This document shows, one piece after another, positions 1,640-34,327 of a stretch of DNA of 61,350 nucleotides. The notes below the pieces were generated by a model. It was not told the DNA's origin. It worked only from the letters and a program-made list of their open reading frames with translations, and did not search any database. Numbering within the stretch: position 1 is the stretch's first letter; each line of letters opens with the position of its first letter. The stretch lies in NCBI GenBank assembly GCA_031257105.1, contig JAIRPG010000132.1:1-61350 (forward strand). The letters are read 5' to 3'. A program made the position numbers and the translations under genes. Source of the stretch: Treponema sp. (GTDB lineage Bacteria; Spirochaetota; Spirochaetia; Treponematales; Breznakiellaceae).

Positions 1640-1655
1640 CAAACGCTATTTCTTT
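1625..1655 (+). terminator. Probable terminator of the symporter gene
   Basis: GCGTTTGC (1625-1632) and GCAAACGC (1639-1646) form a perfect 8-bp stem with a 6-nt loop, followed by the T-rich run TATTTCTTTTT. The right arm reaches the stop codon of the opposing TPR gene. Confidence 0.6.
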
Positions 1656-3025
1656 TTCACCGCGCCGGCGGCGACCGGCGGCTTTACATCTACGAGGTTG
1701 AGCATCGCGGTAAGCCGGTCTTTTTCGATAAGATCGATGAGCCGGGCCTCGGTGTAGCGCCGGGCCTCGTCGGTAAAGACGCCCACGGTGATGCAGATGC
1801 CCTTGCCTGCTTTCACTTCCTTGAGATGGGAATGAAAGTCCCTTACGATAAATTCTCCGATAGAGCCCTGGGAGCGGATAAACCGGAACATCACCACATC
1901 GGACCACTTGGGGGTGTCCACCTCCGCCAGTATGTCGGCCCACTCGTTTTTGTTGACCGCGATATTCGTTATCTTGATTTTGGCCCGCTGGTAGTAGCCT
2001 ATGACGATCTTCCGGCAGAGCGCGATGAAGTCGGCGGACGGGGCCATGAGGAAAATCTGAAGATTCTTGTTGGCGTTCAGTTCCTGATACTTACCGATGA
2101 GCATGGCCACGTCTTTGTAGCTTGGGTTCCGCGTTTGGATCGCCTTGAGGTTCGCCAGGGCCTTGCCGATTTCATTCTGCTTGAGGTACGCCGTGGCCAG
2201 TTGGTATTCAAGATCGACCTGCACTTCCGGTTTGATGTTGGTATGCCGCAGCCCGATCTCAAAATCCTCGATAGCCCGCTGGGTCTGGTGCATATCCGCG
2301 TTGATCGACCCGGAGAGCAGGCAGGCGTTGGGCCCCATAACGGGGTCGGGGCGCAGATGGCTGAAGATCTTCAACGCCTGCTCAACCTGATTTGCCTCGA
2401 AATAACATTCTCCCAGCGTGTACAAGGATTCTTTATCATCCGGAGCGAGGTCGATGGCCTTGCGGATTGACGCAAGGGCTTCTTTGTACCGTTTTACCTT
2501 AAAAAAAGCGTGGCCCAGGCAACGCAGGGTAGCGGCGTGGTCGGGATCCTGCCGTTTGGCTTGCTGGAGGAGGCCGATGGCTTTCTCGTAATTCTTTCGC
2601 TCGAATTCCAGCGCCCCAAGGTTGAAGTTTACTTCAAAATTGTCTTGTTTTATGTTCCGGGCGGCTGTAAGGCCCTTATGGGCTTCGTTTACCATCCCCA
2701 GCTTGAGCGCCGAAATCCCGTAACGAAGGTTCACCTCAAATTCGGCGGACGCGGAAGGTCCCGCTTCCAGCAAGGTTTCATAGGCTTTGTACGCCCTATC
2801 CCAGGTTTCTTCCCGAAAGAAAATATCCCCCATTGCCTTGAGCGCGTCCGGATCTTTAGGGTTCTGGTTAAGGCGCTTGCCGGCGTCTTTGAGGGCCGCG
2901 TCCCGGCTGCGTTCAGGTTTACCGGAACCGGAGCCGGCCCTGCCCTTGGAACGGCCTAATACAAACATCAACACGGTCGCCACGAGCCCAATGCCCACAA
3001 CCGCGGCTAAAATGGGTAGAATCAT
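1646..3025 (-). CDS. Membrane-anchored TPR-repeat protein
   Basis: The 459-residue protein starts with one membrane segment (residues 2-21, ILPILAAVVGIGLVATVLMF). A basic linker follows, then about eight tetratricopeptide repeats (roughly residues 45-310) with typical phrases such as ALRCLGHAFFKVKRYKEALA. TPR arrays mediate protein-protein contacts, so this is probably a scaffold on the cytoplasmic face. The last 150 residues form a separate alpha/beta domain I do not recognise. The start at 3025 was chosen over longer upstream options because GGGGAT precedes it and the membrane anchor begins there. Treponema pallidum has a similar TPR protein near its rpoE cluster (from memory). Confidence 0.8.
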   Translation of the reverse strand: MILPILAAVVGIGLVATVLMFVLGRSKGRAGSGSGKPERSRDAALKDAGKRLNQNPKDPDALKAMGDIFFREETWDRAYKAYETLLEAGPSASAEFEVNLRYGISALKLGMVNEAHKGLTAARNIKQDNFEVNFNLGALEFERKNYEKAIGLLQQAKRQDPDHAATLRCLGHAFFKVKRYKEALASIRKAIDLAPDDKESLYTLGECYFEANQVEQALKIFSHLRPDPVMGPNACLLSGSINADMHQTQRAIEDFEIGLRHTNIKPEVQVDLEYQLATAYLKQNEIGKALANLKAIQTRNPSYKDVAMLIGKYQELNANKNLQIFLMAPSADFIALCRKIVIGYYQRAKIKITNIAVNKNEWADILAEVDTPKWSDVVMFRFIRSQGSIGEFIVRDFHSHLKEVKAGKGICITVGVFTDEARRYTEARLIDLIEKDRLTAMLNLVDVKPPVAAGAVKKK

Positions 3026-3160: not shown

Positions 3161-4243
3161 ATGGATTCTACTATTGGCATAAAAATCGCGAACGGAGAAT
3201 TTTATCCAATCGCTCAGGAAAATTCCAACGTTAAGAAACGCCTTGTGCTGACTACGGTGCATAACAACCAAAAGAGTATGCAGATTGATCTGTACAAGAG
3301 CTTTGTTAAATCCATGGCCGACGCCCGGTATATCGGCAGCATCGTGGTGGATAATATCAAATTCAAACCGAAAGGGGATCCTTCGGTGGAGTTGGTCATT
3401 ACCTCCGCCGAAGACGGCACGATTACCGCCGACGCCCAGGATCTTGACCCTCAGTTCCAGGGGGCTCCCCAGCACATGAGCGTGTCCCTCAAGTCACTGG
3501 AAGACGATAAAGAGCCTGAAGAACTCCCCGATTTTGAGCTTGAACCGACCGCTGCGCCGGAAGGCCTCTTTGAACGGGCCAGATCCATTCGGGAAGGGAA
3601 AGAAGAAAAGGAAAAAGGAACCCCCTGGCTGCCGATCATCCTTATCGGACTGGGGATTCTCTTGCTCTGCCTGGGGCTCTGGTTTTTCCTGTTTCGGGAA
3701 AATTCCAGGACGCCGGCGTCAAAACTTCAAACCGAATCCAAGGCCGTCGCCGAGCCGGCGGCTCCAGAGCCGGCGGTTCCAGAGCCGGCGGCGTCAGAAC
3801 CGGCGGCTCCAGAGCCGGCGGCGCCTGCGCGGACGGAACCGGTTCCGCCTGTCGCACGGACGGAAACCGAAGTTCCGGAGCGGCAAAAACCGGCGGAATC
3901 TCCGCCGGAATCTCCGCCGGAACCTCCGCTTATCACGTCTTCTCCGCCGCCGCGCCCTCCCGCCGCCGCCGGAACATCGCCGGCTGCCGGAACATCACCG
4001 GCGCCGGATCTTTCCGCGGACCGCCGCCGCGCCTCACCGCCGGTGGCTTCGTATAAGGTTCCCTTGGTGATTCCCAGGGATGGAGCGCCCTACACTATCC
4101 GCTGGGGGGATACCCTCTGGGATATTTCGGAGGCATTTTATCGGAATCCATGGCTTTACAGGCGTATCGCGCAATATAATCGTATCCGCAACCCGGATAT
4201 TATCGTCTCCGGCACGACTATCCGGATTCCGCCTAAGAATTAA
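3161..4243 (+). CDS. Hsp70-SBD-like / transmembrane / LysM protein
   Basis: The 360-residue protein has four parts. Residues 1-115 resemble the substrate-binding beta-sandwich of DnaK: GIKIANGEFYPIAQENS matches the DnaK stretch with G-I-E-T-L-G-G and P-L-I-E-R-N-T, and later D-N-I-K-F-K-P-K-G-D-P matches D-G-I-N-P-A-P-R-G-M-P. No Hsp70 ATPase domain is present. Residues 155-177 are one membrane segment. Residues 195-300 are a Pro/Ala/Glu-rich linker made of short tandem repeats. Residues 309-358 are a LysM domain (YTIRWGDTLWDISEAFY), which binds peptidoglycan. The topology would put the SBD-like part in the cytoplasm and LysM in the periplasm. The Shine-Dalgarno sequence is poor: AAAGGT touches the ATG. 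The stop overlaps the possible start of the lytic transglycosylase, so the two are probably coupled. Confidence 0.75.
   Translation: MDSTIGIKIANGEFYPIAQENSNVKKRLVLTTVHNNQKSMQIDLYKSFVKSMADARYIGSIVVDNIKFKPKGDPSVELVITSAEDGTITADAQDLDPQFQGAPQHMSVSLKSLEDDKEPEELPDFELEPTAAPEGLFERARSIREGKEEKEKGTPWLPIILIGLGILLLCLGLWFFLFRENSRTPASKLQTESKAVAEPAAPEPAVPEPAASEPAAPEPAAPARTEPVPPVARTETEVPERQKPAESPPESPPEPPLITSSPPPRPPAAAGTSPAAGTSPAPDLSADRRRASPPVASYKVPLVIPRDGAPYTIRWGDTLWDISEAFYRNPWLYRRIAQYNRIRNPDIIVSGTTIRIPPKN
3752..3929 (+). repeat. In-frame tandem repeats in the Pro/Ala linker
   Basis: About five 15-bp units (GAGCCGGCGGCTCCA-like) at 3752-3826 encode E-P-A-A-P repeats. Three 12-bp units (TCCGCCGGAATC) near 3891-3929 encode S-P-P-E. 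All are in frame and sit in a disordered linker, where copy-number change would be tolerated. Confidence 0.8.
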
Positions 4244-6527
4244 CCGCGCGGCGCGGCGTTTCCGTCATCTGGGCGTCTGTTGGCTTATCTACGTCTCCGG
4301 CTTGGTATGCTGCGGCGCCGGGAGAAGCGTTTTAGATCTTCCCCTGCACGACGCCAAAGAACGCCTTGAAAAGGGGGAGATCGCTTTTATCCTCGCCGCC
4401 AACGCCTCCCGCGTGAAGGAATTGAGAGAACTCAATTCCCCGGCGGTCTTCTACGCGGGGCTGCTCGCCGGGGAATCTTCTCCCAGCCACGAGGCGGCTC
4501 TGTTCGCCCTTGCCCTCGACGGATCCCCCCTGATCCGGGAACAGGCGGCTGCGAAACTTATCCCCCTCGTTTTGGCGGGCGGCGCGAAAGGCCCCGCGGA
4601 ATCTCTCTATGCGCTCCTCGCGGATCCCAAGCGTCCGGCCCCCGAAGCGGGTTCCCAGGCTGCGGCCCTGATGTGCGCCGTCTCCTTTGTCTTGGGCCGC
4701 TTTGAGGAGTCGGCGCCTCCAGAGGAGTTGCCTTTGAAGGCGGCGGGTAATGAAAAAATATCCGCGTGGGAAGGCGTTCTCCGCTTGGCGGGTTCCTTGA
4801 CAAAAGCGGGCATGACAAAACCGGACGGGGCGGAGGAACAACTGGCCGCCCTGCTTTTTAGCGCCCCTGCCGGGGCGGTTGACCGCTGGGTTTACGGGCA
4901 GGACGGTTCCTCGCCGGTTCCCGGGTTCCCGGACGCCTTCGGTCAGGCGGAATATGCGGCCCTCGCGGGGAGGCTTGCGGTGTCCCGCCAGGCCTATGAG
5001 GAAGCGCTTACTTCCTTTCGGACCGTGATCGCGCAAAAACGGAGCCTCTTCTTCCGGTATCCTCAGTTGCTGAATGATCTGGGCAGGGCTTTTCAGTTTA
5101 GTTCCGCCGGAGCGGAAGGGGCGGCCCTCTTTATCGCTTGGGACAGGTTCTTCGCCGGTGAGTTTCCGGCGGAAATTCCGGCGGAGTTTCCGGCGGATGT
5201 TCCGCCGGGGGAGAACGGCCCGGTTCGTTACCGGCTCCATTACTTTGCCGGAAGGATAGAGCGGCAGTTGGGAGCGTCCGCCAAGGCGGAGGAACACTTC
5301 ACGAGAGCGCTGGAATTTGCCCCCGATCCGGTTCAGAAAGACGCCTGTATATGGTACATTCTTGATACGGCTCAATCGCGGGGCCGCGCCAAGGGCGGCG
5401 CGTTTTGGGAAAAAGAGTTCGTTCCCTTGCTCAGGCGTTTTATCCCGCAATGGCGCGATACCCTTTACTTTGAAGACATCCTCGATCGCCTCTCCCGGAC
5501 GCTCGTTTCGGGAAGACGCTGGGATACCCTACAGGAGGTCTTCTCCCTCCTGCGAAAGCGCGCCGGCGGGGGCGGGAGCATCGCCGCCCGGTACGCCTAT
5601 ATCCTGGGCAGGGCCGTTCAGGAAGGCTACCTGCCCGCCGTTCAACCCGCTGAGGAGCTCTTTAAGATCGCCCGCGACGAAGGAGGGGCCGCCTTCTATT
5701 ACCGGGCTTTGGCGTCGAGCCGTTTGGGAACGGAGATCGCCATTGACGCGCCCCCGCCTGAGGATCCCGAAAACTTTCCCCACCGGGAAGCGGTGGAATT
5801 CCTCCTCGGATTTTTCCGCTTCGGCGCGGGACAGTTTGTCGGCGCGTACCTTCGTGATTTTCTGGAAGAACTCAGCCCCGGCGAATTGCGGGCGCTCGCG
5901 GAGGCATTCTCCGCTGCGGGACGCTGGGCCGAATCAATCAGAACGGTAGGGGCCTACCTGTTTCAAGAAGGTTATACGGCAAACCGCCGGGATCTGGAAC
6001 TCTACCACCCCCGGCCCTTCCGGGATCTGGTTGAGGCGCGAGCGGAGGAAAATATGATTCCGGCGGCGGCGCTCTACGGCCTTATCCACACGGAAAGCGC
6101 CTTTGAGCCGGACAGCCGCTCCCGAGTTGGGGCGGTGGGGCTTACCCAGCTTATGCCCGCTACCGCAGAGGAGATGGCGGGGCGGATCCGGCGTCAGGGA
6201 GGGCCCGATTACACCGGAGGGGAGGCGGTTTTAACCGATCCGGCGGTCAACATTCACCTGGGCGCTTACTACCTCCGCTACCTGGTAAACCTGATGGAGA
6301 ACCCTATGCTGGCGGTGCTGGCTTACAACGGGGGCTTAGGCCGTATCAGGCGGCTGCGCGCCGCGGAACCCCGCCTTGCCGCGGATCTCTTCCCCGAAAC
6401 CCTGGATATAGACGAAACCAGAAACTATGGCCGGAAGGTCTTGGGCGCCGCGGCGGTGTACGGCTATCTTTATTATACGGTGACGATGGAATCGGTACTT
6501 GCCGATATATATAGCGTTAATCGTTGA
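4239..6527 (+). CDS. Soluble lytic murein transglycosylase (SLT)
   Basis: This periplasmic enzyme should cleave the MurNAc-GlcNAc bond of peptidoglycan, leaving 1,6-anhydroMurNAc ends. The C-terminal SLT domain contains HTESAFEPDSRSRVGAVG, where E is the catalytic acid, then LTQLMPATAEEM, AYNGG and a C-terminal NYGRKV helix. The long N-terminal part is an alpha-helical superhelix of the Slt70 kind. The start is unclear. A signal-peptide-like stretch (R-A-A-R-R-F-R-H then a hydrophobic core) begins before any ATG, GTG or TTG. ATT at 4239 overlaps the LysM stop codon and fits best; ATG at 4080 would run 160 bp into the LysM gene, and TTG at 4302 would remove the signal peptide. Residues encoded near 5163-5207 are an in-frame E-F-P-A repeat. 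Confidence 0.8.
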   Translation: MNRAARRFRHLGVCWLIYVSGLVCCGAGRSVLDLPLHDAKERLEKGEIAFILAANASRVKELRELNSPAVFYAGLLAGESSPSHEAALFALALDGSPLIREQAAAKLIPLVLAGGAKGPAESLYALLADPKRPAPEAGSQAAALMCAVSFVLGRFEESAPPEELPLKAAGNEKISAWEGVLRLAGSLTKAGMTKPDGAEEQLAALLFSAPAGAVDRWVYGQDGSSPVPGFPDAFGQAEYAALAGRLAVSRQAYEEALTSFRTVIAQKRSLFFRYPQLLNDLGRAFQFSSAGAEGAALFIAWDRFFAGEFPAEIPAEFPADVPPGENGPVRYRLHYFAGRIERQLGASAKAEEHFTRALEFAPDPVQKDACIWYILDTAQSRGRAKGGAFWEKEFVPLLRRFIPQWRDTLYFEDILDRLSRTLVSGRRWDTLQEVFSLLRKRAGGGGSIAARYAYILGRAVQEGYLPAVQPAEELFKIARDEGGAAFYYRALASSRLGTEIAIDAPPPEDPENFPHREAVEFLLGFFRFGAGQFVGAYLRDFLEELSPGELRALAEAFSAAGRWAESIRTVGAYLFQEGYTANRRDLELYHPRPFRDLVEARAEENMIPAAALYGLIHTESAFEPDSRSRVGAVGLTQLMPATAEEMAGRIRRQGGPDYTGGEAVLTDPAVNIHLGAYYLRYLVNLMENPMLAVLAYNGGLGRIRRLRAAEPRLAADLFPETLDIDETRNYGRKVLGAAAVYGYLYYTVTMESVLADIYSVNR

Positions 6528-6554: not shown

Positions 6555-8897
6555 GTGGCCTTGCATAAATACCGTCTCGCCGCGCTGCTGATTGCCTCGA
6601 GCCTTGTACTCACGGCGCTTCTGCTGGGAATATCCATAATAGGAGCGCTGTTTGATATTGACTCGATGACCTCGGCGCCGGGGATGTTTTTTGTCGATTC
6701 TTACAGTTTTCTCGCCCTGCTTATCCCCGCCTACCTTGTCTGGGCCGCCCATATTACCGCGGATCCCGTGTACCGGCCCAAACGGATCTTTGTCCTGGGC
6801 CTTTCGGTGATTCCGTTTCTCACCCTCGCCGCCGGACTCAAGCTCCTGCGTGATTTCTACGCCCTGGCGCAAGGACATTCCCTGCTGACCGGGTTGGGGC
6901 AGATCGGCATTGGGTTCTGCGCCGTTATCATGGCTTCGTTGGAAGGGTTCCTTATCTGGGTGGGGACCGTCCGTCTCTTTAATACGAAAAACCGTAAACC
7001 CGGTTCCCCCGAAAAGAAGCCGGGAGCCGCTTCCGAACGGGCGGGAAAGAGCGGAAGCCGTCCGCTGCTTCCCGCGCCGCGCCAACCCTTGCGTAACTCC
7101 GCCGAAACCTCCGTTCAAGCGGACGCCCCGGAAGACGACCGGGCGGCGCTTTCGGCAGGCAACAGGAAAAAAGAGCCGCCGCCTGATCTCCGTACCGATC
7201 ACCCGGTCGTTGAGCTCTCGCTCGCGGAACGCCCTCTCAGCGAGCGGTTTCTCCGTAACGCGGAAACCGGCGGCACCGCGAAACGTTCCGATCGCGAGGA
7301 GGATCCACCGGCGGAAATCGGCGAATTTTTCAGCGTACCACCCGCGGCGCGGCTTATCCCGGTTTCTGAACCGGAAGAACCGGAGGAATTTCCAGGGGAA
7401 TTTGACGAAACGGATGACGACGGGACTGAGGAACCGCCCCCTCCGCTCCGGCCCGGCCCGGCTCAAATGAAGGTCTACCAGATTCCGGTCGAGGGGCTCC
7501 TTACCCAGTACCCGGACGGTCAGTACTGGATCATCGACCAGGCTACCCGGGACGCGGCGAATACCCTGCGGGCAACCTTGGAGGAATTTCACATCCAGGC
7601 GGAGGTAACGGGCATCCGCAAGGGGCCGGTGATCACCATGTTCGAGATCCTTCCCGCTCCGGGCGTAAAGCTCTCCAAGATCGTCAGCCTCCAGGATAAT
7701 ATCGCCTTGCGTATGGCCGCCTCGTCCGTGCGGATCGTAGCGCCGATTCCGGGGAAACACGCCGTAGGCATCGAGGTTCCAAACAAGCGGCGGAACATCG
7801 TCTCTTTCCGGGAACTTATCGAAGGGGAGATGGCCCGCGAAGACAAGAAGGACGGGCGGAAGTGGGAGATCCCCGTTGTGCTGGGAAAAGACATCGCCGG
7901 CGAGGCTCAGACCGTCGATCTGGTTCAGATGCCCCATCTCCTCATCGCCGGGTCAACCGGTTCGGGTAAATCGGTGTGCGTCAACACCATGATCCTCTCC
8001 ATCTTGTACCGGCGGGCCCCGGCGGAGTGCCGGCTCATCATGATCGATCCCAAAATCGTGGAACTCAAGCTGTACAACGATATTCCCCACCTCTTAACGC
8101 CGGTTATCACCGAACCGAAACGGGCTTTTCAGGCGCTTCAGTACTGTATCTTCGAAATGGAACGGCGTTACGCCTGCCTCGATTCCATGGGCGTTCGGGA
8201 TATCCGCAGCTACAACCGGCGCATCAGAGAGCGGAGCATAGCCGCGGAACACATGCCCTACATCGTCGTGGTGATCGACGAATTCGCCGACCTCATGGCC
8301 ACAACCGGCAAAGAGCTCGAGTCCACCGTGGCGCGCCTCGCGGCCATGAGCCGGGCGGTAGGTATCCACCTGGTGCTTGCGACTCAGCGGCCCTCTATCG
8401 ACGTGATCACCGGCCTCATAAAGGCCAATATCCCCAGCCGCATCGCGTTTATGGTGGCCAGCAAGATGGACAGCCGCATCATTATCGATATGGTGGGGGC
8501 GGAAAAACTCCTGGGCAAGGGAGATATGCTCTACGCCGGCGCGGTGGATCCCTTCCCTGTCCGTATGCAGGGGGCCTTCGTCTCCGAAGATGAGGTAGAA
8601 CGGGTGGTGGAATACGTCAAGGGACTCGGAGAGCCGGACTACATCGACGATGAGATTTTCATTGATGACGATGACGAAGCGAGCGATACTTCCCTTTTTT
8701 CCGACGGCGACGACCCACTCTACGATAAAGCCCTGGAAATCGTCATCCAGCAGGGAAAGGCCAGCGCCAGTTACATTCAGCGTCGGCTCAAAATCGGGTA
8801 TAACCGCGCGGCCAGGCTCGTGGAAGAAATGGAACAACGGGGCGTGGTGGGCCCCGCCCAGGGTTCCAAACCTCGGGAATTGCTCCGGGGCGTATAG
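6555..8897 (+). CDS. ftsK: DNA translocase FtsK/SpoIIIE
   Basis: FtsK pumps DNA through the closing septum and aligns the chromosome dimer-resolution site. The 780-residue protein has four membrane segments in residues 5-145. An acidic/Pro-rich linker runs to about 305. The motor domain has Walker A GSTGSGKS at 466-473 and Walker B VVVIDEFADL near 571. A winged-helix gamma domain lies near 710-775 (YIQRRLKIGYNRAARLVEEM). The start is GTG with GGAGGA about 9 nt upstream. The length is normal for SpoIIIE-type proteins and shorter than E. coli FtsK. It follows the lytic transglycosylase by 27 bp, so these two envelope/division genes are probably co-transcribed. Confidence 0.95.
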   Translation: MALHKYRLAALLIASSLVLTALLLGISIIGALFDIDSMTSAPGMFFVDSYSFLALLIPAYLVWAAHITADPVYRPKRIFVLGLSVIPFLTLAAGLKLLRDFYALAQGHSLLTGLGQIGIGFCAVIMASLEGFLIWVGTVRLFNTKNRKPGSPEKKPGAASERAGKSGSRPLLPAPRQPLRNSAETSVQADAPEDDRAALSAGNRKKEPPPDLRTDHPVVELSLAERPLSERFLRNAETGGTAKRSDREEDPPAEIGEFFSVPPAARLIPVSEPEEPEEFPGEFDETDDDGTEEPPPPLRPGPAQMKVYQIPVEGLLTQYPDGQYWIIDQATRDAANTLRATLEEFHIQAEVTGIRKGPVITMFEILPAPGVKLSKIVSLQDNIALRMAASSVRIVAPIPGKHAVGIEVPNKRRNIVSFRELIEGEMAREDKKDGRKWEIPVVLGKDIAGEAQTVDLVQMPHLLIAGSTGSGKSVCVNTMILSILYRRAPAECRLIMIDPKIVELKLYNDIPHLLTPVITEPKRAFQALQYCIFEMERRYACLDSMGVRDIRSYNRRIRERSIAAEHMPYIVVVIDEFADLMATTGKELESTVARLAAMSRAVGIHLVLATQRPSIDVITGLIKANIPSRIAFMVASKMDSRIIIDMVGAEKLLGKGDMLYAGAVDPFPVRMQGAFVSEDEVERVVEYVKGLGEPDYIDDEIFIDDDDEASDTSLFSDGDDPLYDKALEIVIQQGKASASYIQRRLKIGYNRAARLVEEMEQRGVVGPAQGSKPRELLRGV

Positions 8898-33768: not shown

Positions 33769-33789
33769 ACGCCGGACGACGGCGTTTTT
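33769..33789 (+). terminator. Intrinsic terminator of the second ABC operon
   Basis: ACGCCG-GACGA-CGGCGT followed by five T. It touches the stop codon of the opposing DnaJ-domain gene. Confidence 0.75.
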
Positions 33790-34232
33790 CAGCGGGCAGG
33801 ATTCCTTCGCCATTTTTCGATGCGATCATACGCGGCGTTGATCCGGGCGGACTTTTCGGTGGCTTTTTTCATGTTTCCTTCATGGCCGGCATGGCGATCC
33901 GGGTGGTGGATCTTGAGAAGCCGTTTGTAGGCGTTTTTACATTCCTCCGGGGAAGCCCCCAAAGGAAGCTCCAGTTCGGCAAAGTCCGCCCGGAGGGACT
34001 CCGGAGGCTGCCGGGAAGAGGACGCCCGCTCTTTTCCGGCCCTTCCGTTGCGGTAAGCCGCTTCTCCTTCAGCCTTCTCTTTACCGGAAAGAAAGTCATT
34101 CAACTCTTCAAAGGCCGCGCCCAGATCGGGATCCTCGAAAGGAGAAGCCCCGCCGCCTTTCCCTATAGGGGTGGCGTCCTCATCGTTCAGATAACTCTTG
34201 ATAACATTCCCGAGCCGATCCCAGATTCCCAT
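33789..34232 (-). CDS. Small protein with a C-terminal J domain
   Basis: The 147-residue protein has a J domain at its C-terminus (about 80-140) with the invariant HPD motif in KIHHPDRHAGHEG, which stimulates the ATPase of an Hsp70 partner. The N-terminal half has no glycine/phenylalanine or zinc-finger region, so it is not a DnaJ chaperone proper. The start at 34232 (MGIWDRLGNVI) has no Shine-Dalgarno sequence but lies 6 nt after an extended -10 element, which suggests a leaderless message. A longer reading to 34304 looks non-coding. It is divergent from the phosphoribosyltransferase. Confidence 0.75.
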   Translation of the reverse strand: MGIWDRLGNVIKSYLNDEDATPIGKGGGASPFEDPDLGAAFEELNDFLSGKEKAEGEAAYRNGRAGKERASSSRQPPESLRADFAELELPLGASPEECKNAYKRLLKIHHPDRHAGHEGNMKKATEKSARINAAYDRIEKWRRNPAR

Positions 34233-34238
34233 AGGGGA

Positions 34239-34247
34239 ACTATACCA
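34239..34247 (-). promoter_or_regulatory. Extended -10 promoter, leaderless (J-domain gene)
   Basis: On the minus strand TGG-TATAGT is followed by TCCCCT and the ATG at 34232. The TGn extension makes up for a poor -35. The 6-nt gap to ATG predicts transcription starting at or next to the start codon. Confidence 0.55.
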
Positions 34248-34298
34248 TGTACCCGCTTTGTTAAACAGCCCGGGCATCCGCTCCCGCAAAGGCGAGCT

Positions 34299-34327
34299 TT
34301 GCAAAACGTTGCCCGCCGCTCTATAAT
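34299..34327 (+). promoter_or_regulatory. Promoter, leaderless (phosphoribosyltransferase)
   Basis: TTGCAA (34299-34304), 17 nt, perfect TATAAT (34322-34327), then CCCCCT and ATG at 34334. This is the same -10-to-ATG geometry as the divergent J-domain gene. Confidence 0.65.

Follow-up and report, generated by a model that had tools for sequence, protein, structure and literature searches.

The substrate-binding beta-domain (SBD-beta) of DnaK and other Hsp70 proteins (PF00012; 1DKX, 1DKZ, 4R5J) is also found in FAP363, a protein of the Chlamydomonas axoneme (6u42/8glv) whose globular HSP70-like, SBD-type domain serves as a ciliary bridge between RIB43a copies (PMC7590530). FAP363 is, however, a eukaryotic microtubule inner protein, and is related to the protein described here through the shared Hsp70 domain only. 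In spirochaetes, TPASS_0042 of T. pallidum is annotated only as 'peptidoglycan binding (LysM)' (PMC5951579). BB0259 (LTaseBb) of Borrelia is an inner-membrane-associated, peptidoglycan-lytic enzyme that is required for periplasmic flagella, uses a Sec signal and binds FlgJ; a term search of the paper describing it (PMC8517470) returned no mention of neighbouring LysM or TPR genes. The gene analysed here lies in a Treponema sp. contig (JAIRPG010000132.1), of which the whole stretch of 61,350 nucleotides is referred to as the window. Its product matches the SBD-beta fold of DnaK/Hsp70 from end to end at 19–25% identity, but differs in that it is tethered to the membrane and fused to LysM, whereas the ATPase, interdomain linker and helical lid are missing. 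The features of the gene and its neighbours are as follows.

1646..3022, minus strand: divergent gene for a transmembrane (TM) and TPR protein with an Mrr-like C-terminal domain
3161..4243, plus strand: whole gene, 360 aa, comprising SBD-beta, linker, TM helix, Pro-rich spacer and LysM
3167..3505, plus strand: Hsp70 substrate-binding beta-domain, residues 3–115, eight strands in the AF2 model
3248..3286, plus strand: cleft motif LTTVxxxQxSMQI, residues 30–42, equivalent to DnaK F426–I438
3524..3580, plus strand: linker motif [IL]PDF[ED][LF][ED]...PPxGLY, residues 122–140, where the Hsp70 lid would be expected to start
3626..3694, plus strand: transmembrane helix predicted from hydrophobicity, residues ~156–178
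3695..4075, plus strand: Pro/Ala/Glu-rich spacer read from sequence, presumably periplasmic, residues 179–305
4091..4231, plus strand: LysM domain (PF01476), residues 311–357
4244..6527, plus strand: SLT lytic transglycosylase, counterpart of Borrelia BB0259; start codon approximate
6555..8897, plus strand: FtsK/SpoIIIE translocase

The N-terminal domain is a true homologue of the Hsp70 SBD-beta. Pfam PF00012 (profile length 599, curated cut-off 20.6 bits) matches residues 4–97 at profile positions 393–488, within the SBD, with an E value of 2.8e-7 and 29.6 bits, and the NCBIfam DnaK models concur (E ~8e-7). E. coli DnaK SBD chains were found by phmmer with the 360-aa protein (E 2.6e-5), and a family profile of 41 rows matched Hsp70 chains in the PDB with E values from 2.5e-11 to 1e-9. 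Across 41 diverse family members, Pfam detects HSP70 in 40 and LysM in all 41; identity within the SBD domain is 37–71% over 40 diverse members. The AF2 model of the domain is confident (pLDDT 86) and eight-stranded, and its best fold matches are Hsp70 SBDs throughout; against DnaK/Hsp70 SBDs, Foldseek returned an E value of 3e-8 and VIA-align a Z score of 13–15 over 105–115 residues. The initial annotation had aligned residues 1–115 with DnaK SBD-beta by eye, and both the likeness and the boundary hold, in a profile match above the Pfam cut-off and in a predicted fold related to the Hsp70 SBD. Pfam, PDB profile and fold are concordant, ruling out chance resemblance. A truncated DnaK or pseudogene is ruled out because the gene is intact, with start and stop kept in dozens of genomes, and conserved, and because it falls outside the Hsp70 group: in a tree of 78 SBDs, all spirochaete Hsp70s (canonical and short second copies) form one group apart from the family with support of 99/93, in a short alignment whose deep forks are weak.

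The actin-like nucleotide-binding domain (NBD) is absent: the Pfam match spans no more than positions 393–509 of 599, and the open frame begins 30 bp before the ATG, with the next gene upstream divergent, which leaves no room for an NBD and agrees with the earlier reading that no ATPase domain is present. The interdomain linker is also absent, the protein beginning at approximately DnaK residue 396, as is the helical lid (SBD-alpha), in place of which residues 116–155 form an acidic linker to the TM helix, with no Pfam Hsp70 match past residue 121. Lacking NBD, linker and lid, the protein does not qualify as an Hsp70 chaperone, yet it uses an Hsp70 SBD. In the NBD-docking loop, the equivalent of DnaK P419 is deleted in 51 of 51 family rows, and K414 is replaced by E in the main group. 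By comparison, the substrate cleft is well preserved. Residues T31, T32, Q37 and I42 are invariant in 41 rows; the equivalents of DnaK I401, M404, F426, S427 and T428 are I, A, L, T and T in the family, and those of A429, Q433, V436, I438 and I472 are V, Q, V/M, I and I/V, so that Q433, T428, I401 and I438 are kept. Here the numbering and the roles of cleft and NBD-contact residues follow general background on DnaK. Mean entropy is 0.42 bits at the cleft positions (DnaK 401–474 equivalents) versus 1.32 bits elsewhere in the domain (Mann–Whitney p 4e-4). The P419 deletion and K414E replacement, set against this low entropy, indicate that the family gave up coupling to an NBD but retained the cleft. 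Peptide binding is plausible given the conserved cleft residues, but their conservation could instead reflect folding, as the cleft positions overlap the hydrophobic core of the domain. In treponemes, the linker motif retains D124 in 37 of 41 rows and F125 in 38 of 41, and DFx[LFMI] is found again in most spirochaete members at order level and in several at class level. As a speculation, the motif might act as a ligand of the protein itself or serve as a motif for a partner.

A conserved cleft would also suit a membrane-docked holdase that passes on unfolded polypeptides, or exported ones, to the usual DnaK/DnaJ system, and the host genome does encode a separate full-length DnaK (C12:15318–17099), with a J-domain protein in the window. 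However, the docking loop for the NBD is lost, no linkage to dnaK, dnaJ or grpE was seen in the treponeme loci read, and the wall-binding domain would be left unexplained, which together make a holdase very improbable. The J-domain protein itself (33789–34304, minus strand) is small, with a C-terminal J-domain bearing the HPD motif (PF00226, E 3.7e-8). J-domains engage the NBD and linker of Hsp70. Since both are missing and the gene lies 30 kb away with no visible link, the cooperation that the initial annotation had envisaged is unsupported, and this candidate was set aside.

The 360-aa protein contains a single hydrophobic helix (residues 159–177, mean KD 2.86), followed by a LysM domain at residues 311–357 (PF01476, E 8.9e-9, 35.6 bits against a curated cut-off of 20.9), in line with the membrane helix and LysM assigned earlier. 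Lys and Arg residues near the helix average 4.1 before it and 2.2 after it across the family, and no signal peptide was seen in the protein. This charge bias and the missing signal peptide suggest an N-in/C-out orientation, in which the SBD would be cytoplasmic and LysM would lie beyond the inner membrane. The length of the intervening spacer differs among family members.

Homologues were counted in 45 of 58 close relatives (46 match, the weakest matches including DnaK itself). The best 80 of 348 database matches are all titled spirochaetes, and these listed matches include many termite-gut Treponema genomes and Breznakiella. The family spans most of the class Spirochaetia and a few families beyond, and probably includes the agents of syphilis and Lyme disease. 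In a T. pallidum-like genome the gene (L165:9512–10444) is intact, with SBD-like domain, TM helix and LysM; by gene order and position it would be TPASS_0042, whose annotation names LysM alone. The TP0046–TP0048 genes of an interactome paper were considered as candidates and proved to be other genes. The Borrelia positional counterpart (L146–L148, L186–L196), by position probably BB0260, adjoins BB0259 and lies between TPR and SLT genes as in treponemes. Its N-terminal domain matches the family profile with E values up to 5e-10, and the acidic linker and TM helix are kept, but LysM is gone and the TT...Q cleft motif has decayed. Borrelia also has, only a few genes from this SBD-only gene, a second short Hsp70 of ~500 aa with NBD and SBD-beta and little or no lid (L146:8075–9586, L147:6591–8084, L148:6879–8411). 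A recent origin of the family from this Hsp70 (L146:8075–9586) is unsupported, as both Hsp70 groups cluster together and apart from the family in the tree, with its short alignment. LysM was also not found in the frame read for L149, L151 and L156; with its loss in Borrelia, this makes the domain plus helix the most constant unit of the family. Conversely, in one treponeme locus (L198, G021:C111, ~3173–3301) the gene before SLT has LysM without an SBD, with an unrelated ABC gene close by, which is either natural domain loss or truncation.

The architecture is thus widespread in spirochaetes, lineage-wide and ancient. The initial annotation had called it novel. This stands for the literature searched (TP0042/0043, BB0260, and LysM with DnaK or Hsp70 SBD), where no description of an SBD-beta/TM/LysM protein was found, but is tempered by its spread through spirochaetes and by the automatic detection of both domains by Pfam. 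The SBD-beta could be a scaffold only, its cleft unused, forming a protein–protein bridge through which the LysM protein tethers a cytoplasmic structure to the wall. FAP363 (6u42_5F), described as a bridge (PMC7590530), is among both the fold and the sequence matches, and Borrelia lost the cleft motif while keeping domain and TM helix. However, in most of the family no part of the domain is as conserved as the positions that contact peptide, and we consider a pure scaffold rather unlikely.

The gene surroundings are operon-like and conserved. Of 76 treponeme loci with room for it, 75 have SLT as the next gene downstream, in the same orientation; the divergent TPR gene is immediately upstream in 51 of 69 treponeme loci, and FtsK is found downstream in 39 of the 61 loci that have room; SLT/TPR/FtsK surroundings extend to Borrelia and other families. 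Of the partners proposed earlier from within the window, the TPR protein is thus upheld in part, its gene being adjacent in Borrelia also, while the conserved downstream SLT had not been singled out. As the counterpart of BB0259, the SLT is a candidate partner, and not a homologue, of the SBD-LysM protein. The TPR neighbour (1646–3022, minus strand) combines an N-terminal membrane helix with an Mrr restriction-endonuclease-like C-terminus (PF04471, E 1.2e-8), an odd pairing that is yet conserved beside the SBD-LysM gene. In another family (f6; L152 6330–7313, L153 5929–6948, L158 6137–7159), the SBD-LysM gene lies outside the SLT/TPR neighbourhood and adjoins a gene for an uncharacterised protein of ~1610 aa.

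Co-occurrence with flagella was evaluated using FliF and FlhA as markers. Among the 58 relatives, all 45 genomes with the protein have FliF or FlhA, whereas 5 of the 13 without it have neither (Fisher p 2.8e-4, a value that ignores ancestry). The protein is absent from 17 of 17 sampled genomes lacking flagellar markers, which represent two lineages and approximately two independent losses. In one (f4, a group we take to be Rectinema-like), the protein is missing from five genomes that have neither marker and present in three flagellated ones; in the other (f13, presumably Sphaerochaetaceae), neither FliF nor the protein is present in any of the 12 sampled genomes, and FlhA and SLT are missing too from the 5 tested further. 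Apparent exceptions by FliF alone (G006, G038, G197, G310) were resolved once FlhA was counted, and G046 was discarded as a genome lacking the protein because its contig ends inside the gene. Among the genomes sampled, the protein therefore occurs only with flagellar markers, two lineages having lost flagella. The converse fails, as some flagellated spirochaetes (e.g. f11, f14, f16, f25) have no detectable homologue, and no mutant of the gene was found in the literature searched.

Flagella-less spirochaete lineages also lost the spirochaete shape. Cell shape thus confounds the correlation, because these spirochaetes change shape and wall as well and comprise only two lineages. This loss of shape would also fit an adaptor for division or elongation, in which a protein of the divisome or elongasome is held by the clamp and LysM tracks peptidoglycan at the septum or sidewall. 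FtsK is two genes down in the 39 of 61 loci, as it is in Borrelia and in other families, and a role in division would suit this neighbour just as well. However, the protein is missing from every one of the 17 flagella-less genomes, and these still divide; its tightest neighbour is SLT rather than FtsK; in the T. pallidum-like locus (L165) the gene after SLT resembles GidA, not FtsK. On balance, a division or elongation adaptor seems unlikely.

We tentatively favour, at somewhat less than even confidence, an adaptor that spans the envelope and works independently of ATP: a clamp in the cytoplasm would hold a peptide of a partner, LysM would bind peptidoglycan, and the protein would serve the remodelling of flagella or the cell wall. 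The SBD-beta has been cut free of the ATPase motor and lid, and a single helix would tether it beneath the inner membrane, with LysM reaching peptidoglycan across the Pro-rich spacer. With no NBD, the cleft cannot be cycled by ATP, and it would most likely act constitutively, clamping or docking a short stretch of a partner from the cytoplasm or inner membrane, or else the PDF[ED]L motif of its own linker. Such an adaptor could serve the neighbouring SLT as that enzyme opens or remodels peptidoglycan for the periplasmic flagella, as suggested by the conserved pairing of the two genes, by what BB0259 is known to do and by the lack of the protein in flagella-less spirochaetes. Against the adaptor, LysM is gone and TT...Q decayed in Borrelia, where BB0259 still works. 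The fuller version is possible but more doubtful, namely that an Hsp70 SBD became an ATP-free transmembrane clamp in which a partner segment or PDF[ED]L occupies the cleft, coupling flagellar or wall machinery via LysM to peptidoglycan and the lytic enzyme.

Hsp70 biology centres on the ATP-driven coupling of two domains, and a motorless cleft tied to the wall would show the reuse of one of them as a fixed clamp or bridge. The proposal offers a testable function for an uncharacterised Treponema gene and, in reduced form, for a Borrelia gene, and may bear on the way in which periplasmic flagella get through the cell wall.
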